DNA of 64,000 nt from an uncultured Phascolarctobacterium sp. (GTDB lineage: Bacteria; Bacillota; Negativicutes; Acidaminococcales; Acidaminococcaceae): positions 1-64,000 of the forward strand of contig CASFZG010000002.1 of the NCBI GenBank assembly GCA_949299135.1, written 5' to 3'. Every line of letters begins with the position of its first letter. Positions within the stretch are counted from its first letter, which is position 1. The notes under the pieces are model-generated. The model did not search any database, was not told the DNA's origin, and was given only the letters and a program-made list of their open reading frames with translations. Shown here one piece after another: positions 4,088-44,204 of the stretch. Both the position numbers and the translations under genes were made by a program.

Positions 4088-4125
4088 CGAATTCACCTCC
4101 TACCATCAATTACCTTTACCAAGTA

Positions 4126-4211: not shown

Positions 4212-4241
4212 TTGCGGGCGCAGGGCTTAAAATGGTATAAT
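4212..4241 (+). promoter_or_regulatory. Predicted lepA promoter
   Basis: TTGCGG (4212-4217) and TATAAT (4236-4241) are 18 bases apart. The lepA start codon is 35 bases downstream of the -10 box. Confidence 0.5.
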
Positions 4242-4276
4242 AATTAGTCAGATGAGTTTTTTATAAGGAGAACGCA

Positions 4277-6073
4277 ATGGACCAAAAACATATACGCAAT
4301 TTTTCCATCATCGCCCATATCGACCACGGTAAAAGCACGCTGGCGGACCGCCTGATTGAATACACCGGCACGCTTACCAAGCGCGAGATGGAGGAACAGA
4401 TTTTAGACTCCATGGATTTGGAGCGCGAGCGCGGCATTACCATTAAGGCGCAGGCCGTGCGCAGCATTTACAACGCCCGCGACGGGCAGGAATACATGCT
4501 GAACTTTATCGATACGCCGGGCCACGTCGATTTTACCTACGAGGTTTCGCGTGCTCTGGCTGCGTGTGAGGGCGCGCTGCTGGTTATCGACGCTACGCAG
4601 GGTATTGAGGCGCAGACGCTGGCCAACGTATACCTTGCGCTGGATAATGATTTGGAAATTATTCCCGTTATCAACAAGATAGATTTGCCGAGTGCTGACC
4701 CTGACCGTGTTAAGCACGAAATTGAGGATGTTATCGGCATTGATGCTTCCGAAGCAGTGCTGACGAGCGCTAAAACCGGCATCGGCATTGAGGATGTACT
4801 GGAAGCGATTGTAGAAAAAATCCCCGCGCCGAGCGGCGACGCGCAAAAACCGTTGAAAGCGCTGGTGTTTGACAGCAAGTTTGACGCTTATAAGGGCGTT
4901 GTGCTGTACTTCCGCGTGATGGACGGCAGAGTAAAAAAAGGCATGAAAATCCGCATGATGGCGACCGGCGCGGAATTTGAAGTTACCGAAGTAGGCGTGT
5001 TTAAGCCGAACCCGGTGACTGTGGACGAGCTGGACGCAGGGCAGGTAGGCTTTTTGGCAGCGGCCATTAAAAACGTAAAGGACGCGCGCGTTGGCGATAC
5101 CATTACCGACGCCAACAATCCGGCGGCTGAGGCTTTGCCGGGCTACCGCAAGGCGACACCGATGGTTTACTGCGGCCTGTACCCTGTAGAAAATTCCGAT
5201 TATGATAACCTGCGCGACGCGCTGGAAAAATTACAGCTTAACGATGCTTCGTTGGTGTTCGAGCCGGAAACTTCCGTGGCTTTGGGCTTCGGCTTCCGCT
5301 GCGGCTTTTTGGGCCTGCTGCACATGGACGTTATTAAGGAGCGCCTGGAGCGCGAATACAATTTGGCGCTGATTACCACTGCGCCGAACGTAATTTATGA
5401 GGTGTTCCGCACTAACGGCGACGTAGAACTGGTGGATAACCCGTCCAACTTCCCAGACCCGACCGTTATCGACCATGTTGAGGAGCCTTATGTTAACGCG
5501 ACGATTATTGTGCCGAAGGATTATGTCGGTGCGGTAATGGAGCTGTCGCAGGAAAAACGCGGCGAATATGAGAATATGACGTACCTTGACGAAACGCGCG
5601 TTATGATTCATTATGCGCTGCCGCTGAGCGAGATTATTTTTGACTACTTCGACCGTTTGAAATCCGCAACACGCGGTTATGCTTCGCTGGATTACGAGCT
5701 GGCAGGCTACCGCATGAGCGATTTGGTAAAGGTTGATATTTTACTGAACGGCGACCCGGTGGACGCTTTGAGCGCCATTGTACACCGCGAAAAAGCTACC
5801 GTGCGCGGCAGGCAGCTGGTTGAAAAACTGCGCGGCTTGATCCCGCGCCAGATGTTTGAAATTCCGGTGCAGGCCGCTATCGGCAATAAAATCATCGCCC
5901 GCGAGAACGTGCGCGCGCTGCGCAAGGACGTACTGGCAAAATGCTACGGCGGCGATATTACCCGTAAGCGCAAATTGCTGGAAAAACAAAAAGAAGGCAA
6001 AAAGCGCATGAAACAGGTCGGCAGCGTGGAACTGCCGCAGGAAGCGTTCATGGCAATATTGAAAATGGATTAA
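4277..6073 (+). CDS. lepA: Elongation factor 4 (ribosome back-translocase GTPase)
   Basis: A 598-residue translational GTPase that acts on stalled or mistranslocated ribosomes. The G1 motif [13 protein letters not shown] starts at about residue 13, and G3 (DTPGHVDF) and G4 (NKID) follow. Domains II, III and V are homologous to EF-G. The C-terminal domain ends in [20 protein letters not shown], typical of LepA. The length is the usual one. The start ATG has AAGGAG 7 bases upstream. In this genome it is followed by an accessory toxin-antitoxin locus rather than by hemW. Confidence 0.97.
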
Positions 6074-15955: not shown

Positions 15956-15993
15956 ATGATGTAAACATATAAAACCATACCGGAAGGTTGAGC

Positions 15994-16959
15994 ATGATGA
16001 TTACAGACTTAAAAGACACCAAAATAGCCAAAGACCGTTTACTTAATATGTACGCTACGCTTGCCGAAGGCAAAGCACTGTATAAAGCACGCGAAGCAGT
16101 AAAGTTTAACTGCTCGCTGCGTTCCATACAGCGTGATATTGAAGATTTACGGTCTTTTTTTGCTAACCAAAGCGAAGCAACAGGCGTGGTGCAGGAACTT
16201 ATTTACGACAGAAAGCTTAACGCTTACCGGCTTGTCCCGCCTTTGCGTAATCTTTTGAACAACGAAGAAACCTTCGCAGTGCTGAAAATACTTTTGGAGA
16301 GCCGTTCACTGACGGAAGCAGAACTGTTTCCAATCCTGCAAAAATTAATAACTTGCTGCGTGCCGCCGGATGAACAAAATAGAGTAAACGATTTAATTGC
16401 TAACGAAAAATTTCATTACGTAGAACCCAAGCATAAAAGCAAGCTACTTCTAAAAATGTGGGAGCTTTCTGGTGCTTTACGTGAACATAAGCTGGTAAAA
16501 GTTATATATATGCGGCGCGAAGGCAAAGAGGTTACGCGTTATATTAAGCCAGTGGGTATAATGTTTTCCGAATTTTATTTTTATCTGGTAGCGTTTATAG
16601 ATGAAGAAGCGAGCGGTGAAAAGATTGTATACGAACCGGGCAGTGAAAGCTATCCGACCATTTACAGAATAGACCGCATTAAGGAATACACTATAACCGA
16701 CAAGCATTTTAGTGTACCATATCAAGACCGTTTTGAAGAAGGCGAGTTCCGCCAACGTGTGCAGTTTATGTACGGCGGCAAACTGCAAAAAATAAAGTTC
16801 TGGTATAAAGGACCTTCGGTAGAAGCAGTTTTAGACCGTCTGCCGACAGCAAAAATATTGCAACACGATGATAACGGCTATTTAATCAGCGCCGAAGTTT
16901 TTGGTAAAGGTATTGATATGTGGTTAAGAAGCCAGGGCGATATGGTGGAAAGAGTTTAA
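15994..16959 (+). CDS. WYL-domain transcriptional regulator
   Basis: A 321-residue regulator. The N-terminal winged helix-turn-helix (RLLNMYATLAEGKALYKARE, then CSLRSIQRDIEDLRSFF) is followed by a WYL ligand-sensing domain. In that domain LVKVIYMRREGKEVTRYIKP and FYLVAF occupy the usual beta strands, and a C-terminal WCX-like extension follows. The ATG at 15994 has GGAAGG 6 bases upstream. WYL proteins often control defence and mobile-element genes, such as BrxR and CapW. A decayed copy of this gene's 3' end is found at 18700-18930, upstream of the helicase operon. Confidence 0.88.
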   Translation: MMITDLKDTKIAKDRLLNMYATLAEGKALYKAREAVKFNCSLRSIQRDIEDLRSFFANQSEATGVVQELIYDRKLNAYRLVPPLRNLLNNEETFAVLKILLESRSLTEAELFPILQKLITCCVPPDEQNRVNDLIANEKFHYVEPKHKSKLLLKMWELSGALREHKLVKVIYMRREGKEVTRYIKPVGIMFSEFYFYLVAFIDEEASGEKIVYEPGSESYPTIYRIDRIKEYTITDKHFSVPYQDRFEEGEFRQRVQFMYGGKLQKIKFWYKGPSVEAVLDRLPTAKILQHDDNGYLISAEVFGKGIDMWLRSQGDMVERV

Positions 16960-16982
16960 TATTTGGGATTGGAGAAATCAAG

Positions 16983-18074
16983 ATGAATAAAGTAAAAGAA
17001 ATATTAAGAAACATAGAACCTGATAGCTATGGCAACTATTTTTACTGCCATTATGGTTTGCGTCAAGTTATGGGAATGCTATATGATGCTGCGGATGGTA
17101 CAAGCAAAGATGAATTGGCCGACTGGAAAATAGAAAATCAGTTTACTCAAAGTAATGAAACATTATTAAGCGGTAACTTATTAATGATTAATAGAAATAA
17201 CGGAGTAAAAATTAATCCGGAGTACGATAAAAAACTTCAGATAAAATATAGTGCTAAAAGCTTATTTTATAATGACAATAACCTCAAAAATATAATAAAA
17301 GAAGCTAATGATTTTGTAGAAGAACATACAGGTGGGCACATAAAAAATGCAGTTAATGAAGATAACTTAAAAGAAGCGGCTGCGATAGTAACTAATTCTG
17401 TTTATTTTTACAGCAAATGGTCAGAAAAACTTAAAGAAACTGGCAACATCTTGTTTTCATTAACCCAAAATAATGAAAAAGAGGTTGTTGCAGTAAAAGG
17501 TAAAACCAATAAATATATTTCGAACGAAAAGGTACATGGATTTAGTTATGCTTACTCAGATAAAAGGTATAGTTTCATAGCATTAATGCTTAAAAATGAA
17601 GATAAAAAATTTAGCTGGCAGGATGTTCCAAATTTAGAGAAATTTGAAGAAACAGTAGAAGATAAAGGTTCTATTTCTAATAATGGTGAAATTACAGAAT
17701 CCGGTAGTACAAAAATAAATAAAAAAGAAGTCCATTTTACTATGCCAAAGTTTAAGGTAGATGCAGAAGTCAACTTTGATGAAGCATTAAAAGCTCTGGG
17801 TATAAAAAGTATATACGGGACAAATGCAAATTTATCTAAAGGTTTTTCCTGTTACAACGGTTTGTATTTAAGCACTGTTAACCAAAAAAGCGGCATTCTC
17901 GTAGATGAAAATGGAACTGAAGCGTGGTCTTTTTTGTCTGGAACTGCGTTTTCTAAAACGATGATAGAAGCTGTTCAATTAACTTTTAATAAACCTTACT
18001 TCTTTATGGTATATGACAAGGTTGATGAGCAGCCGGTATTTGCTGGAATTATTAATAATCCGCGGTGGGAATAA
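16983..18074 (+). CDS. Serpin-family protease inhibitor, no signal peptide
   Basis: A 363-residue serpin. The family signatures are in the C-terminal third: the breach and hinge segment VDENGTEAWSFLSGTAF and the final NKPYFFMVYDKVDEQPVFAG, which matches the serpin signature near the C-terminus. Upstream, EAAAIVTNSVYFYSKWSEK corresponds to strand 3A. The length is normal for a single serpin domain. The hinge is less alanine-rich than in classical inhibitory serpins, so inhibition is uncertain. There is no secretion signal, which is unusual among gut-bacterial serpins. GGAGAAATCAAG precedes the ATG. It lies 23 bases after the WYL gene. Confidence 0.85.
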   Translation: MNKVKEILRNIEPDSYGNYFYCHYGLRQVMGMLYDAADGTSKDELADWKIENQFTQSNETLLSGNLLMINRNNGVKINPEYDKKLQIKYSAKSLFYNDNNLKNIIKEANDFVEEHTGGHIKNAVNEDNLKEAAAIVTNSVYFYSKWSEKLKETGNILFSLTQNNEKEVVAVKGKTNKYISNEKVHGFSYAYSDKRYSFIALMLKNEDKKFSWQDVPNLEKFEETVEDKGSISNNGEITESGSTKINKKEVHFTMPKFKVDAEVNFDEALKALGIKSIYGTNANLSKGFSCYNGLYLSTVNQKSGILVDENGTEAWSFLSGTAFSKTMIEAVQLTFNKPYFFMVYDKVDEQPVFAGIINNPRWE

Positions 18075-18699: not shown

Positions 18700-18930
18700 A
18701 TTTGAAGAAGTCGAGTTTTTCAAACGTGTACAGTTTATGTATGACGGCAAGCTTCAAAAATAAAGTTTTGGTATACAGATCTTTCGATATAAGTTGTTTT
18801 AAATTGCCTGCCAACAACAAAATATTACAAATGTTGATAAGATCTACTTAATTAGCATTGAAGTTTTTGGCAAAGGCATGATTGCGGCTGAGAAGCCAGT
18901 ATGATATAGTTAAGGTAGTGGAGATAAACC
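18700..18930 (+). pseudogene. Remnant of a WYL regulator gene (3' end)
   Basis: This stretch is a decayed copy of the last 220 or so bases of the intact WYL gene (16736-16959). Matching blocks include GAAGAAG-TCGAG, CAGTTTATGTA, ACGGCAA, AAAGTT-TGGTAT, AAAATATT and GAAGTTTTTGG. A one-base deletion and an in-frame TAA at about 18761 break the reading frame. Translated blocks such as RVQFMYDGKLQK and EVFGKG match the intact protein. It lies directly upstream of the helicase operon. Confidence 0.85.
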
Positions 18931-19070: not shown

Positions 19071-22000
19071 ATGGCTATAATTTTTGATGACATTATTTGG
19101 GCAGACTGGGGTTTGAAAAGAAATGCCACTAATTTATCTAACTCACAATATAAGCCTGCTAAACCAGATGATATAGAGGATGATAATGGGAATTATTATG
19201 ATAGTCATACTCTTGATATTGCCGATGAGGAAATTGATAATACTGATTTAAGTTATACAGACAAGAATATTTGTATTAAATTAAATAATAAAAATATTAC
19301 TAGAATCAATAAAAGCGAAAAAGTTCTGTGCGACAAATTTCCGAAGCTGAGGGAAATACCGTCAGGGGATCGGATGAATATGATTTTAAAAGGATTGTTT
19401 CTGGAAGGTTGTAGAAAGCATATGTATATCCGCAATCTTACTTTCACACATCAAAGTGATGGTTTGGATGTAAAAATGCTTGGTATTAGACCAGAAAGAA
19501 CGCCTGGAGATTTCCTCGATGGCTATATTCCCAATGATGTTTCCTTATTGTTCAAGGGTTATATTTCAGGAAAAGTATTTATTGTCAATTCGATTCATGA
19601 AGTTGCAAATACTGAACAGTTAGATTTTGAAGCCGATGTAGTTGCAATTCCATATGAAAATCCAGAAATGATTCGCAGCAATTTTCTGTATGATATTCTG
19701 GATAATGCTGGTTCCTTGACGGAGTACACCGGAGAGAAACTTGAGGAATGGAAAGAATATTTGCAATGGAAGATGGAAGTGGCTAAACGGCAGATTTATG
19801 GTTGTAAATACTACAAAGTTGCTTTTGATGATGTTAGAAAGCGCTTGAATTTTTGGTTGGTTTTTGAGAATAAAGATACATTTAGTGCTTTCCGAAAGTA
19901 TCTTGGCAGAGATATTCAAGTCTTTGATAATAACTATTCCAAAGATAAGTGGCATTTTGATTTTGCGGGCGACATCAATAACAAACGTCAAAGATTTAAT
20001 AGCGTAGAACTTGGACGATATAAGGGTGTTGTCAGTGAATACTATTTAAAGGACAATGCTACATCCTCTGACAAAGGTAAGAATTTGACAGGGGAAGATA
20101 TGCATCTTGCATATAGCCTGCAGAGCGAAAGTAATTATTACTTTGACGATTCTGAAGAAGATGATGACGCGGCTTCCGAGCAAGATCTTTATGATGAGTT
20201 TGATAATCCTTACATTGTTCAAGTTGCATACGAGCTCAACAGAAAAGATATTGATGAAATAAATCGCCTTAACTTGGATGATGAGAGTATTTCACAATAT
20301 GTTCATGAGTATGTCTTGGGGAATTACTATTCAAATGGATTTCTTGCATTGTCAGCTATTGGTGATTTTGTTTTAATACATAGATTTCAACAAGCTATTC
20401 GGCAGCTTGAAATGGATGAATGCTATTCTCCAAATCTTGCGATGTGGCTATTTAATGTTGCAAGAGCTCGTATTCCGGGTGATGGAGAGAATGTTTCTGT
20501 TGATCAATGGCTCAATCCACATATTGCTAAAAATGAAAATCAAAAACAAGCCGTTTACAAGATGCTGTCTGCGCCGGACCTTTGCTTAGTGCAAGGACCT
20601 CCTGGTACCGGAAAAACAACGGTTATTGCAGAAGCCATATATCAATTTGTAAAAAAAGGATACAGAGTACTTGTAGCTTCTCAATCGAATGATGCGGTTG
20701 ACAATGCGTTGGAACGACTTGCAGATACTCCGGTAATTCGTGCTATAAGATTAGGGCAGAAAGGAAAGCGAAAACGCAGGATTGATGATCTTAGTACAAG
20801 AAAATTTTCTGAAGACGAGGCCTTAAAATACTACTATAATGCTCTCGCTGTCCAAGTATCTAAGAATTGGCTTGACGCTTGGGACGCTCTTGAAAAAAAC
20901 GGTGCCTTGTACGATAAGGACATCCGCGATGCGAAGATGTTTAACTATGATATAGCTGAATTGAACAATGAACTTATATCTCTTAATGATAGCTATGGAA
21001 ATATACGCCGTAAATTAGATGATATTTCCAAAGAATTTTCTGATGCCAATAATTTTAACACTTCTTTGGAAAATGATAAGCAGCAGTTTAGGATTGCTGA
21101 AGATTGCTTTATCGGTAAAAAAGAGATTCCATTCTATTTTTCTGAATCTATGGTTCGCATTTGTGAAGATGTGTTAAACAGTTTAATTGAAAGTACAATT
21201 CAAAAAGGTGTATATATAGCGCCTAAAAAACTTGACCTTGATGATATGGGACTTGGCAAAGAGCAGGCGTGCATTGTTTTAATCGCAAAAAATCTTACGA
21301 TTCTTGAGAACTTTGTAAAGAAGCTTCGAGAAAAAGTAGGGGCAGATAGCTCCGCTGATGGTGAAATGATGATTCTTACCAGCCAGTTACAGGAAGAACA
21401 GAAGAAACTTATAGAATATATTACTACTGAAGATGAAGATGGCGAGGCTGAATGCAAAAAGCAAATAAAGGTGCTTAAGAAAAGAATTGATGAACTTAAG
21501 TTTTCTTCATCAATCGTTGATGTTTCCAGTGATGAAGAAGATATTTTGTCTAAAGAAATGCTTTCTTCCATTTCTGCTGATACCACAAGTAGTACTTTTG
21601 ATTTGTTAAGTAAAATTATTTCAGAATGGACTATGACTATCCAAAAGATGCTTAAACAGATCAAGTGTGAGCTTTCCAATAGACAACCCGTAGATATTTC
21701 TGATATTTCGAATAGACAGAAAATTGCTGAAATTGAATTGGATTCAGTAAATGAGAATATCAAGAATGTCAAAGGTCAGATTGTCAGCAAACAGCAGACT
21801 TTGCGAAAATTACGTGAAAAGTATTCAATTGACTCAACAAATGCAAATGAGATTGTTGAACATATACAGCGGCTTAAGGAGGAGAATATTCAGAAGTTAC
21901 ATAACCAAAAAAGTTTCAGAGATGATTGGGAAAAAACATTACGGTCTTTTAAAGAACGTTTAGTTGATGAAGATGCGTTTAAATATGATAAAGAGTATTA

Positions 22001-23174
22001 TCAGAAATTCTATATTAACGCTTGCAATGTTGTAGGTATTTCTTGTACTGACAATATGCGTAATCTAACCGATAATGGATATGATGACTTTGATGTTGTC
22101 ATAATAGACGAAGTAAGTAAGGCTACACCGCCTGAACTGTTAATTCCGTTGATGAAAGCAAGAAAGGCTATTTTGGTCGGAGATCATAGGCAACTTCCTC
22201 CTATGTTCAAAGAACATGAAGGGTCATACAAGGAACTTGTTGAGAGTGAGTATGATACGCCTGAAGAAGTGCGTGATTTGCTTACTGAGGAAAACTTCCG
22301 TAGATTCCGAAAGATGGTCACAGCGTCTTTATTCAAAGATTATTTTGAACAGGCTGATGATAGAATTAAGCATTCTTTGTTAGTCCAATACCGTATGCAT
22401 ACGGATATCATGGACATCATCAACAGATTTTATGAGCAACGTCTTTCTTGCGGCCTTTCAGAAGATGTTGAAAACATGGAGAAAAGCCACGGGTTGACAA
22501 TTAAGGGAGTTGATGGAAGCACTTTTATCGTACCTGACAGACACGCATATTGGATTGATTCCTCTTATACACCTAGTGGTAAAGCTATTTACGAGATTCG
22601 GCCTCATAACAGCACTTCAAATTACAATGTATTGGAAAAATTCATTGTTATGGAATTGCTCAAGAAGATTGCAGATACTTATAAGGAACAAGGGTATGGT
22701 GGCGTCAACAGAAAAACAATAGGGGTTATTAGTTTTTATCAAATGCAGGTGAATGAACTTCGAGAAGCATTTAGAGAAGCCAAAAGAACTTACGACTTTT
22801 CTGCGATAGATGTCGATATCAATACTGTTGATAGATTCCAAGGTAAGGAAAAAAATATTATAATTACCTGCTTAGTTAGAAACAACAGGAGTAGAAAAGC
22901 AAGTAAGCATGTTGTTGCTTTTGAAAGAATCAATGTTGCTTTTTCGAGAGCACAGGAACTTTTGTTTATTGTAGGAGCAAAGGATATGTACGAAAACCAG
23001 CAAGTTCAATTGCCCAATATGGATATGCCTGGATTCAGGACAGTTCCCGTTTATAAGAATATAATTGAGACTTTGAATCGAAAAGGTTGTTTTAAGTCCT
23101 GCAACAAACTTATTACGCCTCAACTTGAAGCAAAAGTTATTGATGAATACATCGAGAACGGAGGCAGGTTATGA
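19071..23174 (+). CDS. SF1 (Upf1/DNA2-like) helicase with long insertion
   Basis: A 1367-residue protein. Residues 1-470 are an uncharacterised N-terminal region with an acidic stretch. The helicase core has Walker A GPPGTGKTT (about 508-516), Walker B VVIIDEVSKATPPEL (about 1009), motif III VGDHRQLPPMF, motif V VDRFQGKEKNIIIT and motif VI ERINVAFSRAQELLF. Between motifs I and II lie about 400 residues of mostly coiled-coil sequence, much larger than in typical AAA_11/AAA_12 helicases. The gene overlaps the PIN gene by 4 bases and heads a five-gene operon. The RBS segment GATTGGAGAAAT also precedes the serpin gene. Confidence 0.88.
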   Translation: MAIIFDDIIWADWGLKRNATNLSNSQYKPAKPDDIEDDNGNYYDSHTLDIADEEIDNTDLSYTDKNICIKLNNKNITRINKSEKVLCDKFPKLREIPSGDRMNMILKGLFLEGCRKHMYIRNLTFTHQSDGLDVKMLGIRPERTPGDFLDGYIPNDVSLLFKGYISGKVFIVNSIHEVANTEQLDFEADVVAIPYENPEMIRSNFLYDILDNAGSLTEYTGEKLEEWKEYLQWKMEVAKRQIYGCKYYKVAFDDVRKRLNFWLVFENKDTFSAFRKYLGRDIQVFDNNYSKDKWHFDFAGDINNKRQRFNSVELGRYKGVVSEYYLKDNATSSDKGKNLTGEDMHLAYSLQSESNYYFDDSEEDDDAASEQDLYDEFDNPYIVQVAYELNRKDIDEINRLNLDDESISQYVHEYVLGNYYSNGFLALSAIGDFVLIHRFQQAIRQLEMDECYSPNLAMWLFNVARARIPGDGENVSVDQWLNPHIAKNENQKQAVYKMLSAPDLCLVQGPPGTGKTTVIAEAIYQFVKKGYRVLVASQSNDAVDNALERLADTPVIRAIRLGQKGKRKRRIDDLSTRKFSEDEALKYYYNALAVQVSKNWLDAWDALEKNGALYDKDIRDAKMFNYDIAELNNELISLNDSYGNIRRKLDDISKEFSDANNFNTSLENDKQQFRIAEDCFIGKKEIPFYFSESMVRICEDVLNSLIESTIQKGVYIAPKKLDLDDMGLGKEQACIVLIAKNLTILENFVKKLREKVGADSSADGEMMILTSQLQEEQKKLIEYITTEDEDGEAECKKQIKVLKKRIDELKFSSSIVDVSSDEEDILSKEMLSSISADTTSSTFDLLSKIISEWTMTIQKMLKQIKCELSNRQPVDISDISNRQKIAEIELDSVNENIKNVKGQIVSKQQTLRKLREKYSIDSTNANEIVEHIQRLKEENIQKLHNQKSFRDDWEKTLRSFKERLVDEDAFKYDKEYYQKFYINACNVVGISCTDNMRNLTDNGYDDFDVVIIDEVSKATPPELLIPLMKARKAILVGDHRQLPPMFKEHEGSYKELVESEYDTPEEVRDLLTEENFRRFRKMVTASLFKDYFEQADDRIKHSLLVQYRMHTDIMDIINRFYEQRLSCGLSEDVENMEKSHGLTIKGVDGSTFIVPDRHAYWIDSSYTPSGKAIYEIRPHNSTSNYNVLEKFIVMELLKKIADTYKEQGYGGVNRKTIGVISFYQMQVNELREAFREAKRTYDFSAIDVDINTVDRFQGKEKNIIITCLVRNNRSRKASKHVVAFERINVAFSRAQELLFIVGAKDMYENQQVQLPNMDMPGFRTVPVYKNIIETLNRKGCFKSCNKLITPQLEAKVIDEYIENGGRL

Positions 23175-25630
23175 TTATATCCGAGGTTATAATGTCTTAC
23201 CCTTGCATAAAATACGAGGTTGAGGTTTCTCATTTTACTGAGAGGAAATCTACGGCGATAGAATGGGTCATTCTTGAAGCAATCAATAGATGTAATGTAT
23301 TAACTCAGTATGAAGGCGTTTCAATATCTGATTTTTTTAAGAGTATTTTTACTATTTCAGATGCAGATTTATTAATTCGGCCTTGTTTGCTTGCCCTTCA
23401 CGATATGGGAGCAATTAACATTTCAGGCATTGATAATGAAACTGAGTTATCAACGGTTCCTATGAGAAATTTACAGCTAACTAAAATTGGCAAAGAGTTG
23501 CAGATGCAAGGGCTTCTTCCTGGTACTATTGCAGAAGATACTTTTACGATTTATTATGATTTGATAAACAGAACCCTTATAAAAGATACACGACTGTATC
23601 AAGAAAATGCAACCGGTATTAAAGTGATGGAGACTGATGAAACCGAAAGTGTTGAGTTCCCATATTCTGCAATCCGTGAATGGCTTAGTTCCATTCAACA
23701 GAACAATAGAAGAACAGAAATGAACTGGCTATATCCTACCACCAAAATTCAAGATATAACTTCGCTTGAAGCAGATGTTTTATGGAAAAATACAGTTAAA
23801 AAGATTGACTTAACTTATGGAATGCAATGGCGAGTTGTGGACGAAGAAAATGAGGAATTTCATGAGATTTCATTAAAAGGTGCAGAGCTTTCTTGCCCTG
23901 ATGAAATGAAAAGTCTGCCTAAACTTGATATCGTAGATCCTGATGACGAAATCGAACAATTTGTTCCTGTGTCAGAAGTTAACGCTTTTGTTGGAAATTA
24001 TCAACGCAAAGATGACCTGTTTTGTATTAATAAAAAATATTATACAGAATTAAGAGCAGACCAGCTAAGCAAAAGAAAAAAATTAAGGGTGGGTTTTGTT
24101 TTCGGAGCAGACTCTTTTAAGGTAGAAAGTAAAGGAAAACAGTTAATCATCTGGATTCCGGAAAGTATTGGCAGCAATGTTCTTTATAGAAATGATAAAG
24201 CTGTTGTTCAAGCCGGAATCATCACTGTATATGCAGGTAGTACGGCTAAAAATATGGCAATAGCTTACGTGCCAAAGACCTGTCAACTCAACAACTTAAC
24301 TGAAGAATTATTGCCTTATGTTGAGAAGTATTATGAGCAAGAAAACAGTATCCTTTTTGTTCTTGTCGAAATTGGATTAAAGGACTTGTTTCTTGAGTAT
24401 GTTGAACGTCTTGTAAAAAAAGAAGAAACTATTAGTAAAAAAGCTGAAATAATTGATTTGCTTAACTACAAAAGCAACGGCTACTATAATCAAAAGCTGA
24501 TATCTTCTTCGGATAAGGAGCGGTTTATTCTTGATGTTGGATATATACGAGAACGCTGCAATAGTATCAATGATGCTATATCTATTCTTGAAGAATATTC
24601 TTCCGTTACATCACTGCTACGAGAAGAAGGCATTATTCAGAGAGTTATTCAAACTATTGTTGATATCATTGGAGAAGTAAATGATTTGAATGATATTTGG
24701 AGTCTTTGGAATGCCATTGAAAAAATTAAGAGATCACACATCACTTGGATTAACAAAACTGGTATATACAAAAGAGTATACTCAAATACCGGTATTTCTG
24801 ATTTGTTTGAGAAGTTTAAAGATGATGAAGTTTTTAACATTAAAGAATATACAGCAGTGGAACAAATCTTTCTTAATATGAAACGGATTTATATTCGTAT
24901 CCAAGAATTCCTCCCGGAATTTGATATGTATTCTCATGCCAGCAACGAAAAGTATAATGAAATCGTGATCAAGCATATGGATAGCCTCAGTAACTTGTAT
25001 GACGAAATTCGACAGTGGAAAGACGAAGAAGAAAAGTTCAGCAATAAAGTTCTTGATATCAAAGACTTTATTCGCCCCGGCACTTCTTTCGCAAATGTCA
25101 AGGCTAATGTTGATGGTTTGTGTAGTGCATTGGCTAGCTACTTTGATGATTCTTTCATGAAGTACAATAAAGTTTACATTATTGATACTTGCACGCTGAT
25201 GCACGCGCCAGGGGTGATTTCTTGGTTTGACGGAGAAAATGCATTGCTCATTGTTCCAATGATTGTTCTTGATGAACTAGATGATAAAAAATCATCTGAT
25301 GATGAGGACGAAGCATTTTGCGCAAGAGCTGCCATTAGAAATATAAATAATTATCGTTCATATGAATGGATCAATGTTGGCCAGAATAGTTATCCGGAAT
25401 TATTATCTGATGATTTAGATAAAGAACGTAATGATAATAAAATCCTTTCTATTGCATTGCGGTATAAGATAAAAAATCCAATCATCTTAACAGATGATAT
25501 TAATTTGGGAAACATTGCTGACGGCTATAAAATCAAAAGTATGACTCTTAAATCGTATAGGGCTATGAGAGAACATGCAAAACTTACTACAAAAGTCAAT
25601 GGAAAGAAAAAGCAAAGAAAGAAGAAATGA
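23171..25630 (+). CDS. Large protein with C-terminal PIN nuclease domain
   Basis: An 819-residue protein. The last 140 residues are a PIN-type ribonuclease domain with the acidic residues in place: YIIDTCTLMH, VPMIVLDELDD, NDNKILSIALRY and ILTDDINLG. The N-terminal 110 residues look like a winged-helix module (AIEWVILEAINRCNVLTQYE, then a MRNLQLTKIGKELQMQGLLPG end). The middle is unassigned and partly helical, and the C-terminus is a Lys-rich tail. The start ATG overlaps the helicase stop (ATGA) and has GGAGG 6 bases upstream; ATG at 23201 is an alternative. Coupling to a helicase suggests cleavage of unwound RNA or DNA. Confidence 0.8.
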   Translation: MIISEVIMSYPCIKYEVEVSHFTERKSTAIEWVILEAINRCNVLTQYEGVSISDFFKSIFTISDADLLIRPCLLALHDMGAINISGIDNETELSTVPMRNLQLTKIGKELQMQGLLPGTIAEDTFTIYYDLINRTLIKDTRLYQENATGIKVMETDETESVEFPYSAIREWLSSIQQNNRRTEMNWLYPTTKIQDITSLEADVLWKNTVKKIDLTYGMQWRVVDEENEEFHEISLKGAELSCPDEMKSLPKLDIVDPDDEIEQFVPVSEVNAFVGNYQRKDDLFCINKKYYTELRADQLSKRKKLRVGFVFGADSFKVESKGKQLIIWIPESIGSNVLYRNDKAVVQAGIITVYAGSTAKNMAIAYVPKTCQLNNLTEELLPYVEKYYEQENSILFVLVEIGLKDLFLEYVERLVKKEETISKKAEIIDLLNYKSNGYYNQKLISSSDKERFILDVGYIRERCNSINDAISILEEYSSVTSLLREEGIIQRVIQTIVDIIGEVNDLNDIWSLWNAIEKIKRSHITWINKTGIYKRVYSNTGISDLFEKFKDDEVFNIKEYTAVEQIFLNMKRIYIRIQEFLPEFDMYSHASNEKYNEIVIKHMDSLSNLYDEIRQWKDEEEKFSNKVLDIKDFIRPGTSFANVKANVDGLCSALASYFDDSFMKYNKVYIIDTCTLMHAPGVISWFDGENALLIVPMIVLDELDDKKSSDDEDEAFCARAAIRNINNYRSYEWINVGQNSYPELLSDDLDKERNDNKILSIALRYKIKNPIILTDDINLGNIADGYKIKSMTLKSYRAMREHAKLTTKVNGKKKQRKKK

Positions 25631-25641
25631 GGTGAACAGCT

Positions 25642-26772
25642 TTGAGCAGATCTTATGAATATTCCTATGCTTTAGAAGCGGCTATAAGAAGAAAAATTTA
25701 TTTGAACAGAATAAGTTCAAAAACGGAGCAGTTTTATTCTCGCTATTTGGAACAGTATAACCGAATGAAAAAAGATGGGGTTGCTGCCTATATTCCAGAC
25801 GAAATGAATCGCTTGGAATCGGATCTGTCCCGTATTAGAACTTTGCTTATATCTGACCCGGAAGAAGCTAGGGAATTGAGTTATACTGTAGGGTCATATA
25901 TTAGAAGTATGTCGTCTTTGGCATCCGTTGCCAGAGAAGAGTTTGACCGTGCCGAACGGCTTAGGGTTGAGAATATGAGGATTGAGCGTCAACAGCATCA
26001 AAGTGAACTGGTTCAAGCGTACTTTGAAATACTGAAAAGTATAACCAATTCTATTGTTGTTAATTATTCTGCGTTGGGTTTGCAAGATTTAAAGAAAAAA
26101 ATTGATACTGGCATTTTAACCGACAAAGCTGAGCTTATAGCAAGGGCAAAGGCTATTATTGCAAATGCCGAAAAAATGGCGGATGAATGGAAGTCCAAGA
26201 CCATCAACAGTAACAGACGAACAAATGCTGTTGAGATAATCAATGATACGGAAGCAAGGTTAAGAAACGAAAATATTGAGGATAAAGAAAAGACACAACA
26301 ATTCTTGGATAGAATAAATCAGTTACGTTCCGGACTTGCCAATGGAAAAATTGATGTCGAAGCTGTCGAAAAACAAATTAATGCTTTAGAAAATGAAGTG
26401 GATGATACGCATATTACAGAAGAAACAAGGAGGGAAACCGTCAAGGCTATTATAAAGCTGCTTAGGAGCCAAGAGTTTACGGTCGAAAAACCTCAAGTGG
26501 TTCAAATGGAGGGAAAAAATTATGTAAAAATAGTTGCAAAACAGCCTTCCGGTAAAAGAGCCATTTGCAATATTGATTTACATGGGAAAATTGCTTACAA
26601 ATTTGATAACTATGAAGGAATGACTTGCTTAAAGGACATTGAAAAATTTAATGTTGACTTGCAGCAAGTGTATTCAATAAAACTTTCTGATGAAAGAGTG
26701 CTGTGGAGTAATCCGGATAAATTGGACAAGGATGTGAACAGTACACCCAATACCGATAGGAGGAGTAAATAA
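25642..26772 (+). CDS. Coiled-coil protein of the helicase operon
   Basis: A 376-residue, largely helical protein with long coiled-coil stretches (about residues 20-130 and 180-260). A C-terminal globular part of about 110 residues begins near RREAVKAI-like text and contains VEKPQVVQMEGKNYVKIVAK and ICNIDLHGKIAYKFDNYEG. No family is recognised. TTG is the start, with GAGGTGA 5 bases upstream. It begins 11 bases after the PIN gene and overlaps the AAA+ gene by 1 base (TAATG), so it is a fixed operon member and may be the scaffold of the complex. Confidence 0.7.
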   Translation: MSRSYEYSYALEAAIRRKIYLNRISSKTEQFYSRYLEQYNRMKKDGVAAYIPDEMNRLESDLSRIRTLLISDPEEARELSYTVGSYIRSMSSLASVAREEFDRAERLRVENMRIERQQHQSELVQAYFEILKSITNSIVVNYSALGLQDLKKKIDTGILTDKAELIARAKAIIANAEKMADEWKSKTINSNRRTNAVEIINDTEARLRNENIEDKEKTQQFLDRINQLRSGLANGKIDVEAVEKQINALENEVDDTHITEETRRETVKAIIKLLRSQEFTVEKPQVVQMEGKNYVKIVAKQPSGKRAICNIDLHGKIAYKFDNYEGMTCLKDIEKFNVDLQQVYSIKLSDERVLWSNPDKLDKDVNSTPNTDRRSK

Positions 26773-28613
26773 TGGCAGAAATGAATATATGGCTTGAGCG
26801 TTTTAATAGAGATATAGGTTACAAATCTTCGGTTATTGTATTTGGTAACACATCTGATATTATGCTCAATCCTAAAAACTTTGGAAAGTATGATAAAGTT
26901 ATTGACACACTTATTGCATATGTTCGTGATAAAGGTTACAAGCAGATTGTTAAGTGGGACAGAGTTGATGGAATTGACTATTCTGTATCAGATGAAATTA
27001 TAAACGCTAATCCCGACAATAACGTTCCGCAGCAATCGAATAATTCCGATTACGACCTTGGCGAAGATTTTGATGTGAGTTCTACAGCTCAATATGGGAA
27101 TACATACAAAAATCCGGACGAATTCTTTCCCTATATGCTGAGCGTAATAAAAAATGGTTCCAATAAAACAGCATTTGTTTTGGATTATTCAGATTACCTT
27201 TTTGGTAACGCAAATTCACTTTCTGAAAAAGAGAGATACTATTTAACAACTCTCGGCAAGATATTAGAGTCCAGCCAGTCTTATAATATGCTTAAAAGTG
27301 ACTTTGCATCGGTTGGAAATATCGTTATTATCGTTGCGAAAAACAATGCTATGATTCCCCCGGCATTTTATCTCAATAACTCCATGGTAAGTTCTGTAAA
27401 TGTTCCAATGCCGGGACATCATGAAAGAGAACACTTTATCGAATTTAATATGGCTTGTTTAAATATCAGCCAAAACATTATGGCTGATAAAAATGCTAAA
27501 GATGATTTGATCGATGCTTTGGATGGGTTCACTCTTAGAGATATTGCGCAGATGATAAAACTATCTCGTCAGATGCCTGAAAAACTTTCTTTCGAGAAAT
27601 TGATTAACCTCTTTAAGTACGGTGAAAAAGTGAGCCCTTGGGAGGAACTGTCAAAGGATAAAGTTGAAAGAATTGAGGAAGAACTTAGTAAGCGAGTGAA
27701 AGGTCAAGATGAAGCTATTTCTAAAGTAAAAGATGTTATAATCAGAGCCTATACAGGATTTTCTGGTTTGCAGCATTCATCTAAGCAGAAAAAGCCTAAA
27801 GGAATACTGTTTTTTGTTGGACCTACCGGTGTTGGTAAAACAGAACTAGCAAAGTCTCTTGCAGCATTTGTATTTGGTGATGAAAATGCTTGTATACGAT
27901 TTGATATGTCTGAGTATAACCATGAGCATAGTGACCAAAGATTGGTTGGAGCACCTCCTGGATATGTAGGTTACGAAGCCGGTGGACAGCTCACAAATGC
28001 CGTCAAAGAAAAACCTTTTTGCGTTCTTTTGTTTGATGAAATTGAAAAAGCCCATGGAAGAATTCTTGACAAGTTTCTTCAGATTTTGGAAGATGGTCGA
28101 TTAACTGATGGCAAGGGTGAAACGGTTTACTTCTCTGAAACAATCATTATTTTTACATCTAATATCGGTGCCGCTGAAGTTAGTGCAGATTTGAGCCCGA
28201 AAGAGGTGAAGAAGCTTTTTGTTAAAAAGGTGCAAGAGCATTTCATCACAAAACTCGGAAGACCTGAGTTGTTGAACAGAATTGGCGATAATATTGTTGC
28301 CTTCAATTTCATTGATGATCCAGAAGTATTTACAAAGATTGCAAAACTCAAATTTAAAACTATTGAAGAGTTTGTTAAAGAACGTTATGGTGCCAAAATT
28401 GTGTTTGAAAAAGAAGATGCTATTTTTATGGCTATTGGTAAAAAAGCCGAAAAGAAAGATGGTGGACGTGGATTGCTTAATGTGATGGAAAGTGTTATTA
28501 TCAACCCTCTATCTGAGTTTATATTTGAACGCTCTAATATGATTAGAAACAGACAAATAGTTATTAAGCCACTTTTTTTGGATAAACCAGAATTTGACTT
28601 TGAATTAAGGTAG
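26772..28613 (+). CDS. ClpB/ClpA-like AAA+ ATPase with degenerate first module
   Basis: A 613-residue AAA+ protein. The C-terminal module (about 300-613) is ClpB-like AAA-2: GPTGVGKTELAKSLA (Walker A), FDMSEYNHEHSDQRLVGAPP pore-loop region, CVLLFDEIEKAH (Walker B), FTSNIG sensor and RPELLNRIGD with the arginine finger. The N-terminal 290 residues look like a second AAA domain that has lost its P-loop. They keep a Walker B-like strand (KTAFVLDYSDYLFG), a sensor-1-like strand (GNIVIIVAKNN) and a sensor-2-like helix (FTLRDIAQMIKLS). No N-terminal Clp repeat domain is present. It probably remodels or unfolds a partner of the operon. Confidence 0.85.
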   Translation: MAEMNIWLERFNRDIGYKSSVIVFGNTSDIMLNPKNFGKYDKVIDTLIAYVRDKGYKQIVKWDRVDGIDYSVSDEIINANPDNNVPQQSNNSDYDLGEDFDVSSTAQYGNTYKNPDEFFPYMLSVIKNGSNKTAFVLDYSDYLFGNANSLSEKERYYLTTLGKILESSQSYNMLKSDFASVGNIVIIVAKNNAMIPPAFYLNNSMVSSVNVPMPGHHEREHFIEFNMACLNISQNIMADKNAKDDLIDALDGFTLRDIAQMIKLSRQMPEKLSFEKLINLFKYGEKVSPWEELSKDKVERIEEELSKRVKGQDEAISKVKDVIIRAYTGFSGLQHSSKQKKPKGILFFVGPTGVGKTELAKSLAAFVFGDENACIRFDMSEYNHEHSDQRLVGAPPGYVGYEAGGQLTNAVKEKPFCVLLFDEIEKAHGRILDKFLQILEDGRLTDGKGETVYFSETIIIFTSNIGAAEVSADLSPKEVKKLFVKKVQEHFITKLGRPELLNRIGDNIVAFNFIDDPEVFTKIAKLKFKTIEEFVKERYGAKIVFEKEDAIFMAIGKKAEKKDGGRGLLNVMESVIINPLSEFIFERSNMIRNRQIVIKPLFLDKPEFDFELR

Positions 28614-28620
28614 GTAAGGT

Positions 28621-29187
28621 ATGGGGTATCTTAATATTGCCTCCGTGAGATTGTGCACGGAGGCAGAAGGACCTGGAAAACGCTTTGCTATATGGGTACA
28701 AGGGTGCAAAAATCGTTGCCCAGGTTGCTGCAATCCTGAAATGCAAAAAATAAAAGTAAACATCATAGTTGATACAGCAGATGTGATAGAACTGATTAAA
28801 ACTGCAAAAGAACAGTTCGGTGTCGAAGGGGTTTCTTTCATTGGCGGAGAGCCAATGCTTCAAGCACTGGGGTTAGCTGAAATTGCGGAATGGTGCCAAT
28901 CAGCAGGATTATCGGTGCTTGTTTTTACAGGATATTTATATGAGGATTTAAATTCAACTAATGATGTCTCCATCAAACGGCTGCTTGATAACACTGATAT
29001 ACTGGTTGACGGTCCGTTTATACAAAATGAATATGATGATAAACGTGATTGGGTAGGATCAAAAAATCAAAAGGTATTGTTGTTGAGTGACCGATATGAA
29101 CCGGGAGTAGAATTCAAACATAGTCAAAGAATTATGGAGGTTCTTGTGTCTGAGGACAGTATTTGCATTAATGGTTGGCCGTTTTAA
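28621..29187 (+). CDS. NrdG-like radical SAM activating enzyme (operon 1)
   Basis: A 188-residue radical SAM protein of the class III reductase activase type. The cluster motif CKNRCPGC places Cys29, Cys33 and Cys36, and the SAM-binding strand is FIGGEPM (about 73-79). The length is slightly above typical NrdG. It begins 7 bases after the AAA+ stop and is the last gene of the helicase operon, although another NrdG-like gene with its own reductase follows 133 bases later. It could activate that reductase or another glycyl radical protein, or modify a substrate of the operon; none of these is shown. Confidence 0.82.
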   Translation: MGYLNIASVRLCTEAEGPGKRFAIWVQGCKNRCPGCCNPEMQKIKVNIIVDTADVIELIKTAKEQFGVEGVSFIGGEPMLQALGLAEIAEWCQSAGLSVLVFTGYLYEDLNSTNDVSIKRLLDNTDILVDGPFIQNEYDDKRDWVGSKNQKVLLLSDRYEPGVEFKHSQRIMEVLVSEDSICINGWPF

Positions 29188-29320: not shown

Positions 29321-29788
29321 ATGAATTTAAAAGTTGGAGGTTTTATTGAAACAAGTGCAGCAGATGGACCAGGAATTCGAAGTGTTTTGTTTCTTCAAGG
29401 GTGTCACCGAAATTGTGAAGGATGTCACAATAAAAAACTACAAAATCCTGATGGTGGAGTTTTACTCAGCATAACTGAGGCAGTGGAATACATCAACAAA
29501 CACTGCCAAAACAAAAAACTTACAATATCCGGTGGTGAACCGCTAGAGCAACTGCCTGCATTGATTGAGTTAACCGAGCTGCTAGTAAATATGAGGTTTG
29601 ACCTATGTGTCTATACCGGCAATAATTTAGAAGATGTTCCGTTATTGCTGAGAAAAAATCTTCATTGGCTGAAAGTTGGTAATTTTCGTGTCGACCAGCG
29701 AACCTTGACAAAACCTTTTGTTGGTTCATCTAACCAAAATATGATAGAATTAAACAAAAAGAGTGAGGACTGTTATGCGAAAACATGA
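29321..29788 (+). CDS. nrdG: NrdG-like anaerobic reductase activase (operon 2)
   Basis: A 155-residue radical SAM activase. GPGIRSVLFLQGCHRNCEGC places the cluster cysteines at 28, 32 and 35, and SGGEPLEQLP is the SAM-binding strand. Size and motifs fit NrdG, which generates the glycyl radical of class III ribonucleotide reductase. The 3' end overlaps the start of the reductase gene by 14 bases. It is A+T-rich like its neighbours, which suggests an accessory copy rather than the housekeeping nrdG. Confidence 0.87.
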   Translation: MNLKVGGFIETSAADGPGIRSVLFLQGCHRNCEGCHNKKLQNPDGGVLLSITEAVEYINKHCQNKKLTISGGEPLEQLPALIELTELLVNMRFDLCVYTGNNLEDVPLLLRKNLHWLKVGNFRVDQRTLTKPFVGSSNQNMIELNKKSEDCYAKT

Positions 29789-31460
29789 ACGTGAATTAGC
29801 AAACTGCGAAGAAAATGCTTCATCGAGAATTATTCAGTTGGGTGAACAGGTGAAAAAAAGCCGTCTGTCTTCTGTAATTCCGCCGTGGTTGTATGAAATG
29901 CATGAAAAGTGTCAATTCCATATCCACGATATGGAATTTTATGATATTACTTATAACTGCATCGGTGTAAACCCATCTGATTTAATTGTATCCGCATCAA
30001 ATTTTCATGACGCTATTCTTAAATTGGCGTATGGGATTACAGCTTTAACTAATCAGCAGTCTGGTGGAATTGGATTTATAGACTTTGATGGAGATTTATC
30101 TAAATATATTGATAGTGAATCAGAGTATGATATCCAAAATGAACTTGTTACATTACTTTCACTTTTAAACTTTCCATTACGTAAAGGATGTGAAAAAGCG
30201 TATGTTACATTTAATTTTGGCCTATGTACAACAGAAAAAGGAAGACTACTTACTAGATGTCTATTAAACGCATATAGAAAAAGCGGACAGGCTTTTCCCA
30301 ACCTAGTGTTCAAAGTTAAAGGAAACATTAATCACTGTATAGGTTCTCCAAATTATGATCTGTTTAGGTTGGCCTGCGAAGTTACAGCAGAATGTATGAA
30401 TCCTACTTACTTAAATATGGATGCAACATTTAATAGAAATTTCGATCCAGACAGCTTTGGAATTATGGGTTGTCGCACTCGTATAGGTGAAAATCGTTTT
30501 GGTAAGAGTGGCTCTCTACATCGTGGCAATATTGCCGCGATATCAATTAATCTGGTTCAAATTGCTGCAAGAAACATAGGTAATTTACCTGCTTTTTACA
30601 AAGATCTGTCTTGTGTAATGCTGAATGCAATGGAGCTATTATTGCACCGTTTTAACACTCTCTGTCACTCAGAAAAGGCAACACTTACTCACCTCCAAAT
30701 AGGATGTCTCTATCAAGGATATGATAAAGGGAATAACGCAGATATGTTGAAGAACGGTACGCTCTCTATTGGGTTTATAGGGTTATGGGATGCTGTTATG
30801 ATGTTATTTGGTTTAGCTAAGTTCCCTATAGAAGAATTAGAAAAATGGCGAGATTTAGGGTTGAAAATTGTTCATAAGATGCGTAATTTGACAGATCAGT
30901 TCGCTGAAGAAAATCAGTTAAACATCTCGCTATTGGCTTCTTCTGGAGAAGGAATTTCGGGACGCTTTCCGCAGCATGATATTGTAAACGATATTCATAC
31001 TGCATATGTAGCAAAAAAAGGTTTTTACACTAACTCTTTTCATGTTCCTGTAGATATTGCAGTAAATTGTTTTCATAAAATTGATTTAGAGGCACCATTT
31101 CATAACATATGTAATGGTGGTCACATTACATATGTTGAACTTAATGAGATACCAATTGGAAATAGCTCTGCTATTCAGGATTTAGTTGATTATGCTATAT
31201 CTCAGAATATTGGTTATTTTGGTGTGAATTACCCTTTGGATATTTGTTCTTCTTGTGGTGCGAAGGGAACATTTGCTAAATTCTGCCCAATTTGTGGTAA
31301 TGAACATATTAAGCGTTTGCGCCGCGTGTCTGGATACTTGTCTGAAAAGGATTCTTTTACCGTTGGCAAACAGTCTGAGCTTTATTGTCGTACTGCTCAT
31401 AATGGATACTCTGATTTCAAAAATTATAGATTAGGCAACAGGAGACCTGAAAAGGAATAA
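29775..31460 (+). CDS. nrdD: Class III (anaerobic) ribonucleoside-triphosphate reductase, short form
   Basis: A 561-residue glycyl radical reductase that makes dNTPs from NTPs. Visible active-site features are the N-terminal cysteine in YNCIGVN, the radical cysteine in IMGCRTR, RGNIAAISINL, a C-terminal zinc site (CSSCGAKG then CPICG) and the glycyl radical loop RVSGYLSEKD. Full-length NrdD is usually about 700-780 residues; this one lacks the N-terminal ATP-cone, so overall allosteric control by ATP/dATP is probably absent. The ATG at 29775 has GTGAGG upstream and overlaps nrdG; a GTG at 29763 is less likely. An accessory copy next to a helicase/nuclease operon is unusual. Confidence 0.88.
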   Translation: MRKHERELANCEENASSRIIQLGEQVKKSRLSSVIPPWLYEMHEKCQFHIHDMEFYDITYNCIGVNPSDLIVSASNFHDAILKLAYGITALTNQQSGGIGFIDFDGDLSKYIDSESEYDIQNELVTLLSLLNFPLRKGCEKAYVTFNFGLCTTEKGRLLTRCLLNAYRKSGQAFPNLVFKVKGNINHCIGSPNYDLFRLACEVTAECMNPTYLNMDATFNRNFDPDSFGIMGCRTRIGENRFGKSGSLHRGNIAAISINLVQIAARNIGNLPAFYKDLSCVMLNAMELLLHRFNTLCHSEKATLTHLQIGCLYQGYDKGNNADMLKNGTLSIGFIGLWDAVMMLFGLAKFPIEELEKWRDLGLKIVHKMRNLTDQFAEENQLNISLLASSGEGISGRFPQHDIVNDIHTAYVAKKGFYTNSFHVPVDIAVNCFHKIDLEAPFHNICNGGHITYVELNEIPIGNSSAIQDLVDYAISQNIGYFGVNYPLDICSSCGAKGTFAKFCPICGNEHIKRLRRVSGYLSEKDSFTVGKQSELYCRTAHNGYSDFKNYRLGNRRPEKE

Positions 31461-31462
31461 AA

Positions 31463-32044
31463 ATGCATATTGCAATCGAAGGATTAGACGGTGTTGGAAA
31501 AACACAAACTGCTAAATTGTTGGCAAAACAGTATAATTTTACCTTTATTGAAAAACCATTGCATTATCTAACAGATACTGATGGAATGGAAAACTACCTT
31601 CGTATGATGAAGTACATCAATAAAGAAATGGATGATGATTTTAAAGCTTTATACTATGGACTTGGCAATCTATATCTGAGCAAAATTTCAAAAGGAACTA
31701 ATGTTGTGACTGATCGGCATCTTTGTTCCACATATTTTTGGAATCATACTGCGAACAATCATATTTTATTTGACTATCTGGTGCAAACAGCCGGTCTTCC
31801 AGATTTGACCGTTATACTTTTTGCCGATGCCGAAGTGCGTCGACAACGTATGTTGGAGCGCAGTGCTAGCGATACAGATTTAGTAGAAAAGGTTTTTCCA
31901 AATAATCAATATAAGAAAATGATTGAGTTTGTTAAAAATTATGGAGCAAACTTTGTTATTATAGACAATTCCGATAAGACTTTAAATGAAACGGTTCAAG
32001 AAATTGCAAAAATAGCTGGATTAAAGTATGTTGAAATTTTTTAA
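31463..32044 (+). CDS. Thymidylate kinase-like (d)NMP kinase
   Basis: A 193-residue P-loop kinase. GLDGVGKTQTAK at residues 7-18 is the tmk-type Walker A, DRHLCSTYFW is the DR motif that binds the monophosphate, and RRQRMLERSASD is a LID-like arginine region. The closest activity is dTMP to dTDP phosphorylation, but the acceptor base cannot be read from sequence. It starts 2 bases after the nrdD stop. With nrdG and nrdD it forms a compact deoxynucleotide-supply operon, separate from the cell's normal tmk. Confidence 0.82.
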   Translation: MHIAIEGLDGVGKTQTAKLLAKQYNFTFIEKPLHYLTDTDGMENYLRMMKYINKEMDDDFKALYYGLGNLYLSKISKGTNVVTDRHLCSTYFWNHTANNHILFDYLVQTAGLPDLTVILFADAEVRRQRMLERSASDTDLVEKVFPNNQYKKMIEFVKNYGANFVIIDNSDKTLNETVQEIAKIAGLKYVEIF

Positions 32045-32257: not shown

Positions 32258-32275
32258 TAATATGATTAAATTTTT

Positions 32276-32309
32276 GAGATAGCCAGTATCTGGCTATCTC
32301 ATTTTTTAT
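32276..32309 (+). terminator. Terminator with ATAGCCA core (operon 2 end)
   Basis: The 10-bp stem GAGATAGCCA / TGGCTATCTC with a 5-base loop is followed by ATTTTTT. It is the second member of the three-copy hairpin family. Confidence 0.82.
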
Positions 32310-34132: not shown

Positions 34133-34220
34133 TGGTGCCGAAGGCCGGACTCGAACCGGCACGAGCGTAAACCCGCTTGATTTTGAGTCAAGTGCGTCTG
34201 CCAATTCCGCCACTTCGGCA
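34133..34220 (-). tRNA. tRNA-Leu (anticodon CAA)
   Basis: On the minus strand the 7-bp acceptor stem TGCCGAA / TTCGGCA ends in an encoded CCA. The anticodon loop CTCAAAA in the CTTGA / TCAAG stem gives CAA, reading UUG. The long variable arm and 88-base length fit tRNA-Leu. Confidence 0.95.
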
Positions 34221-44036: not shown

Positions 44037-44204
44037 TATTACAAACATTCGTTAAATTTTTGAGATATAATAAAATTTCAAATCAAAGCTTATTTATCTG
44101 CTAAATGCGAAAAATGAGCAGAAAATGATAAAAAGTAAAAATTAAATTTTTATGATATAATTTGATTAGTAAATTTAAATAAACGAATGAAAAGGAGCTT
44201 TAAT

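Follow-up and report, generated by a model that had tools for sequence, protein, structure and literature searches.

The DNA analyzed here, a stretch of 64,000 nucleotides that we call the window, carries five closely spaced genes that encode a UPF1-like SF1 helicase, a protein with a winged-HTH-like N terminus and a C-terminal PIN nuclease, a predicted coiled-coil protein, a Clp-type AAA+ motor, and an NrdG-like radical-SAM protein (Table 1). Neighboring genes overlap by 4 bases (genes 1 and 2), are separated by 11 bases (genes 2 and 3), overlap again by 1 base (genes 3 and 4), and are separated by 7 bases (genes 4 and 5). Their GC content is 0.30 to 0.37, compared to approximately 0.50 in the flanks. 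An earlier description made from the letters alone (the sequence-only reading) had reported five same-strand, AT-rich genes with these overlaps and gaps; all of the coordinates were reproduced on the + strand, and each of the domains it had claimed (SF1 helicase, PIN, ClpB-type motor, and NrdG-like radical SAM) was found in family searches.

The five genes lie within an AT-rich stretch of ∼20 kb between flanks with a GC content of 0.5, and this stretch ends at a tRNA-Leu gene (34133-34219). The transcription unit probably extends beyond position 29187, through the NrdG2, NrdD, and tmk-like genes, to the stem-loop listed in Table 1. Promoter-like sites in the region occurred at chance frequency.

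Table 1. Features of the five-gene locus and its surroundings in the window
Feature	Coordinates	Strand	Basis or remark
WYL-domain regulator	15988..16959	+	Common to locus L074, there directly upstream of the helicase
Gene 1, UPF1-like SF1 helicase, 1367 aa	19071..23174	+	AAA_11/AAA_12; PADLOC MkoA
Gene 2, winged-HTH-like N terminus and C-terminal PIN_4 nuclease	23171..25630	+	Family searches; profile comparison
Gene 3, predicted coiled-coil scaffold, 376 aa	25642..26772	+	Alignment conservation; TTG start
Gene 4, ClpB/ClpC-type AAA+ unfoldase, 613 aa	26772..28613	+	AAA_2 match; motif conservation
Gene 5, NrdG-like radical-SAM protein, 188 aa	28621..29187	+	TIGR02491, 102 bits; motifs
Second NrdG-like activase (NrdG2), accessory	29321..29788	+	Homologue in L074, also after the module
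Short anaerobic RNR (NrdD-like) with RVSGY glycyl-radical motif, accessory	29763..31460	+	The genome's third NrdD
Thymidylate-kinase-like P-loop kinase, accessory	31463..32044	+	29% identical to a kinase downstream of the module on an Acinetobacter plasmid (L004)
Terminator-like stem-loop, probable end of transcription unit	32275..32301	+	Other terminator matches in the region near chance

The helicase and its winged-HTH effector

UPF1-like helicases translocate on RNA or single-stranded DNA, and helicase-effector pairs recur across prokaryotic immunity. Gene 1 strongly matched the PADLOC model MkoA (E=7.8e-108, 360 bits, residues 330-1337); the match begins at model position 482, and no kinase region was found in the protein. 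An insertion of about 400 residues, already described in the sequence-only reading, lies between the Walker A motif (residues 508-517) and the DEVSKATP motif (residues 1013-1020).

Gene 2 combines an MkoB/CnuE-like winged-HTH region (residues ∼8-140) with a PIN_4 domain (residues 669-793). PIN_4 proteins are ribonucleases, and the acidic residues of the window copy are D672, E702, D755, and D776. The four catalytic acids are kept in 60, 67, 59, and 58 of 68 aligned sequences, a count from the alignment that supersedes one made with a crude regular expression (26/69). The first catalytic Asp is missing in L053, L055, L057, and L058 and also in L065, L067, L068, and L104; four Treponema loci are among the copies without it, and a Lys occupies the position in five of the 68 aligned sequences.

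The effector domain itself is interchangeable across the family. PIN_4 was recognized in 57 of 77 gene 2 C termini, the others being Ppx/GppA or unrecognized. A Ppx/GppA phosphatase takes the place of PIN in L071 (4903-8196) and L123 (4948-8040), which suggests that these two proteins may be (p)ppGpp or polyphosphate effectors.

To what extent gene 2 is related to MkoB appears to depend on the member considered. The gene 2 protein of L116 matched the MkoB model directly (E=3e-12), and a profile of 28 gene 2 N termini aligned with one true MkoB over 116 columns (E=4.6e-5), while the same profile gave no match to a second true MkoB. The kinship therefore looks solid for some members, such as L116, and weak for others. 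The true MkoB proteins, which the model drew from genomes, have the same type of N terminus and a different C terminus, of PLD type as judged by eye; a PLD-like domain is given for Mokosh type I (PMC10952713).

A second known relative is found among the CoCoNuT systems. In Bell et al. 2024 (PMC11090510), UPF1-like helicases whose Walker A is followed by a large insertion are reported to have, typically, a downstream protein with an elongated winged-HTH and one of a variety of effectors, mostly nucleases; CnuH relatives in other contexts are also noted there. The window matches this cnuHE-type layout, with the insertion between residues 517 and 1013, a wHTH-like N terminus, and a PIN C terminus. 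Judged by these features, genes 1 and 2 are of a known kind, a helicase followed by a winged-HTH-nuclease, as in MkoAB and CnuHE.

The sequence-only reading could match the five genes to no named system. That statement holds for the full set, which no PADLOC, NCBIfam, or Pfam model names, but not for the helicase and winged-HTH-nuclease pair, which is known from MkoAB and from cnuHE (PMC11090510). No description of the five-gene combination was found in the literature searched; an earlier sighting of single components is possible. Like Mokosh type I, the module has a UPF1-like SF1 helicase directly before a protein with an N-terminal wHTH-like region and a C-terminal nuclease. It differs from Mokosh type I, with its PLD nuclease and kinase-fused MkoA, in having PIN rather than PLD, in having no kinase on the window helicase, and in adding obligate coiled-coil, ClpB-like, and NrdG-like genes. 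With CoCoNuT types II and III (CnuH-CnuE, with McrBC-like CnuB/CnuC; PMC11090510), it shares the post-Walker A insertion, a downstream elongated-wHTH effector, coiled coils, and an AAA+ hexamer; a frequent TerY-P triad and AAA+ proteins in which only the C-terminal ATPase is active also occur there. Unlike CoCoNuT, the module contains no McrB or McrC, its AAA+ protein being a ClpB/ClpC-type unfoldase and not a McrB GTPase; its core includes a radical-SAM enzyme; and its effector is PIN, not HEPN, Vsr, or PLD. The new part is thus the set of genes 3 to 5, in fixed coupling to a known helicase-wHTH-nuclease pair, and it looks as though a radical-chemistry enzyme had not been tied to an RNA-cutting helicase pair before.

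The coiled-coil, Clp-type, and radical-SAM proteins

ClpB-type motors thread proteins. The gene 4 model aligns over both D1 and D2 of ClpC/ClpB, and the D2 Walker A (residues 350-358), GYVG pore loop (397-400), and Walker B (419-428) are retained in essentially all 84 sequences. Compared to ClpB/ClpC, with which it shares the D1-D2 fold and a fully conserved D2 motor and pore loop, gene 4 is set apart by its length and by a D1 that has no Walker A in residues 1-280; the AAA Pfam models match D2 only. The ClpP-type [ILVM]GF loop is also absent from the five gene 4 copies that were checked. We predict that gene 4 is a ClpB-type unfoldase with a dead D1 and an intact D2.

The gene 3 protein is a helical rod (residues 1-276) followed by a small beta-beta-beta-beta-alpha C-terminal domain (residues 285-344), in which all 80 sequences keep Y324 and C329 and 79 keep G326. 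The tail is also conserved (W355-N357-P358). No Pfam family matched the protein at cutoff, and no PDB fold matched below E=0.001. The C-terminal domain matched DUF2997 in only 3 of the 50 members compared, none below E=0.014, and no DUF2997 sequence for comparison turned up in 61 genomes of the phylum.

Gene 5 carries the CX3CX2C(C)N motif at residues 29-38, GGEP at 75-78, and WVGSxNQ at 144-150. The CX3CX2C motif is present in 84 of 84 gene 5 sequences, and the NrdG-like GGEP and GSxNQ motifs are also kept. Although the protein is NrdG-like along its whole length, its score against the NrdG model TIGR02491 falls below the cutoff of 126 bits. Activases of the NrdG/PFL-AE type abstract hydrogen from protein glycines, and no known glycyl-radical motif was recognized by eye in genes 1 to 4.

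Given this similarity, gene 5 could be an ordinary NrdG that was captured with the operon, in which case the module would include nucleotide reduction. The NrdG2-NrdD pair that follows the module in the window and in L074 fits this explanation, as does the likeness of gene 5 to NrdG from end to end. Nevertheless, we consider it highly improbable. Of the 30 host genomes searched, 20 are without NrdD, and 19 of these NrdD-less genomes also lack any Gly_radical domain; the NrdD and Gly_radical searches gave positives in Escherichia coli and other controls. Gene 5 is also under the NrdG cutoff, and the window has a separate NrdG2 beside its NrdD. A role as RNR activase was therefore rejected on these host counts, and in the hosts that lack NrdD and Gly_radical gene 5 must have another substrate. 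That the activase is fixed even in hosts without a glycyl-radical enzyme points to a new NrdG-family substrate.

Recurrence across bacteria

We scanned 84,980 species genomes with two gene 4-specific motifs, [FY]NHEH[AS]DQ and A[YF]TG[LF]SGLQ; a third candidate, RFDMSE, was dropped because it also matches ordinary Clp proteins. The scan gave 96 confirmed loci, of which 80 were fetched for study. A search with gene 3 alone (tblastn against plasmids) found ten plasmids in five genera. In each of the five that we examined (Polaromonas, Moellerella, Acinetobacter, Photobacterium, and Leisingera) the five genes are present in identical order and strand, and these copies span alpha-, beta-, and gammaproteobacteria. 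The 80 fetched loci, the five plasmids, and the window were scored with profiles of the five families. Gene 2 proteins without a PIN match were scored by position or, in L069, L073, and L079, by position plus a wHTH-like N terminus, for which the profile match in L079 was weak.

The sequence-only reading would have fallen if the five genes did not occur together elsewhere or if the set already had a name, and neither proved to be the case. Although loci were found by searching gene 4 or gene 3 alone, all five families were present in 72 of 72 untruncated loci; the other 14 were truncated by contig ends or lay on short contigs. The hosts, assigned to phyla from the organism names in record titles, belong to about a dozen phyla in total: Bacillota, Actinomycetota, Pseudomonadota, Bacteroidota, Planctomycetota, Spirochaetota, Synergistota, Myxococcota, Campylobacterota, Verrucomicrobiota/Lentisphaerota, Fibrobacterota, and Cloacimonadota. 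Adjacent genes overlap or are narrowly separated, with median intergenic distances of -4, -1, and +3 bases. Pairwise gene distances are correlated (Spearman 0.61 to 0.78), most highly for the coiled-coil and radical-SAM proteins. An unfoldase and a radical-SAM activase are fixed parts of a helicase-effector system in distant phyla.

The module is nonetheless rare: gene 3 was found in 1 of 199 genomes sampled from the window's phylum, and the Moellerella operon had no close counterpart in E. coli genomes. Viral contigs gave weak, generic Clp-like matches only (25 to 34% identity), and no copy of gene 2 was present in any phage record searched. The helicase gene is broken into several frames in L115 (Helicobacter suis, 1573-5465) and is likewise split in L046, L060, L074, and L122.

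In three variant loci (L069, L073, and L079), the coiled-coil, Clp, and radical-SAM genes remain linked while the helicase has moved behind a set of vWA, PP2C, and kinase genes; these three genes thus behave as one block. Such sets resemble the TerY-P triads, which are absent from the window and from most loci. The C terminus of the wHTH-like gene in these three loci runs beyond the fetched region.

These loci bear on whether the module is simply a further Mokosh subtype, in which the helicase and wHTH-nuclease would do all of the defense, with PIN for PLD, and genes 3 to 5 would be loose accessories. The strong MkoA match of gene 1, the MkoB match of the L116 protein, and the shared wHTH-plus-nuclease layout are all what such a subtype would show. 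We consider it unlikely, given that genes 3 to 5 are present in every untruncated locus, that they stay joined when the helicase pair has moved to the vWA-PP2C-kinase triad, and that the PLD and fused kinase of Mokosh type I are absent.

Neighbors, mobility, and proposed function

A same-genus genome with flanks 92 to 96% identical to those of the window has about 3.3 kb at the corresponding site, compared to about 20 kb in the window. The two share the left flank, and the comparison is bounded on the other side by a Fic-like gene and the tRNA-Leu gene. The segment is thus missing from this relative at the shared tRNA-Leu site, which identifies the module as an insertion. In another congener, other cargo follows the WYL gene. 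The WYL protein, which L074 has in common with the window together with the module, NrdG2 (as a shortened ORF), and NrdD, is a probable regulator of the module.

Between the WYL and helicase genes of the window lies a bacterial serpin gene (16920-18074; Pfam Serpin, E=1.6e-37). The WYL 3' end occurs twice (16732-16946 and 18701-18910, 77% over 215 bp), the second copy being degenerate. These two copies bracket the serpin, and in L074 the WYL and helicase genes are adjacent; the serpin segment therefore seems to have entered between these two genes. Neither the serpin nor a zinc-ribbon neighbor has relatives in the other loci, and we did not count them as parts of the module.

Defense genes are found near several copies. 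On the Acinetobacter plasmid, brxL and DarT genes are found close to the module; on the Leisingera plasmid, a BREX-3 brxF and a WYL gene are. Proteins in the flanks of other loci belong to Abi, CARF/Csx1, type IV restriction, DRT, pVip, and candidate (PDC) families, and flank Pfam families also include type I restriction, RAMP, TnsA, and integrase. As evidence that the module is enriched in defense islands, we regard these neighbors as suggestive only.

Ordinary housekeeping genes flank several loci, and a UPF1-like helicase, a PIN RNase, and an unfoldase are parts used in RNA surveillance, so the module might serve RNA quality control or a stress response, like eukaryotic UPF1/SMG6 decay with a Clp/CDC48 extractor, rather than defense. 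We find this decidedly unlikely, as the module is rare, patchy, and plasmid-borne, occupies a variable tRNA-adjacent site, swaps effectors, and has defense neighbors, which is the pattern of a conflict system. Instead we favor, with somewhat better than even confidence, the inference that the module is an RNA-targeting, mobile anti-invader system, in which a helicase-wHTH-effector core is joined to an unfoldase/radical-SAM control module. A conflict system that targets nucleic acid and has a radical-SAM component, much as the sequence-only reading proposed, is thus well supported by conservation, mobility, and neighbors, with the qualification that its helicase/nuclease pair is of an already known kind.

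Radical-SAM was the commonest Pfam family in both sets of flank proteins (7/143 at E<=1e-4 and 5/120 at E<=1e-8). The background, taken from 15 host genomes, is about 4 per Mb. Relative to it, these counts correspond to binomial P values of about 2e-6 and 1e-4, which assume one gene per kb and ignore the shared ancestry of the loci. Extra radical-SAM cassettes appear to be enriched beside the module, and by clustering these genes fall into several distinct cassettes, one of which, NrdG2-NrdD, is found in the window and L074.

Such neighbors raise the alternative that the radical-SAM enzyme produces a small molecule, like viperin, or else modifies a nucleic acid, and that the other proteins then sense or use the result. 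The radical-SAM, kinase, PHP, and JmjC cassettes that adjoin the module could be read in this way, and prokaryotic viperins (pVip) are likewise radical-SAM superfamily proteins in a defense setting. However, the match of gene 5 to pVip is weak and at the superfamily level (E=7e-5); gene 5 encodes an activase of the NrdG type and not a ddhNTP synthase. To our knowledge, the known members of this small activase type (NrdG/PFL-AE) act on proteins. The loci also have no conserved, shared partner that would make a substrate, and we judge this alternative to be improbable.

For the anti-invader system that we favor, we propose the following mechanism. The UPF1-like helicase would load on invader RNA or single-stranded DNA, and its insertion, together with the winged-HTH of gene 2, would drive the PIN ribonuclease to cut target, and perhaps host, RNA. 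The coiled-coil protein would serve a ClpB/ClpC-type hexamer both as a scaffold and as an adaptor; having a single live ATPase ring, this hexamer would unfold or dismantle the assembly with no hand-over to ClpP. The radical-SAM enzyme would have one of the system's own proteins as its target, most likely the C-terminal domain of the coiled-coil protein (Gly326-x-x-Cys329), and this modification would set whether the nuclease is held or released. RNA as the target, the role in defense, and the scaffold and unfolding roles are what we infer; the most speculative steps are what the radical-SAM enzyme acts on and which way the switch works, the action on the coiled-coil protein being suggested by the conserved Gly-x-x-Cys and by coevolution only.

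In its most specific form, the proposal is that a glycyl-radical-type or other radical-SAM modification of the coiled-coil scaffold, read by the Clp unfoldase, may control an immune ribonuclease, and that hosts may plug exchangeable radical-SAM cassettes into this switch. We put this forward tentatively, as a possibility short of a probability. The module points to a control step in immunity that relies on radical chemistry and, if the proposal is true, radical protein modification would be an immune signal.

Three further groupings recur among the flanks, with membership that varies from locus to locus: radical-SAM with PHP (L072, L088, L090, L096, L106, and L110), SPASM-like radical-SAM with JmjC_2 (L086, L092, L094, L101, L104, and L108), and a kinase with a Cys-rich 390-aa protein and hydrolase-like and glycosyltransferase-like proteins (L045, L049, and L070). 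In the window itself, an McrB-like AAA ATPase gene and an McrC-like gene, judged by eye, occupy a second AT-rich patch outside the island (44187-47281).
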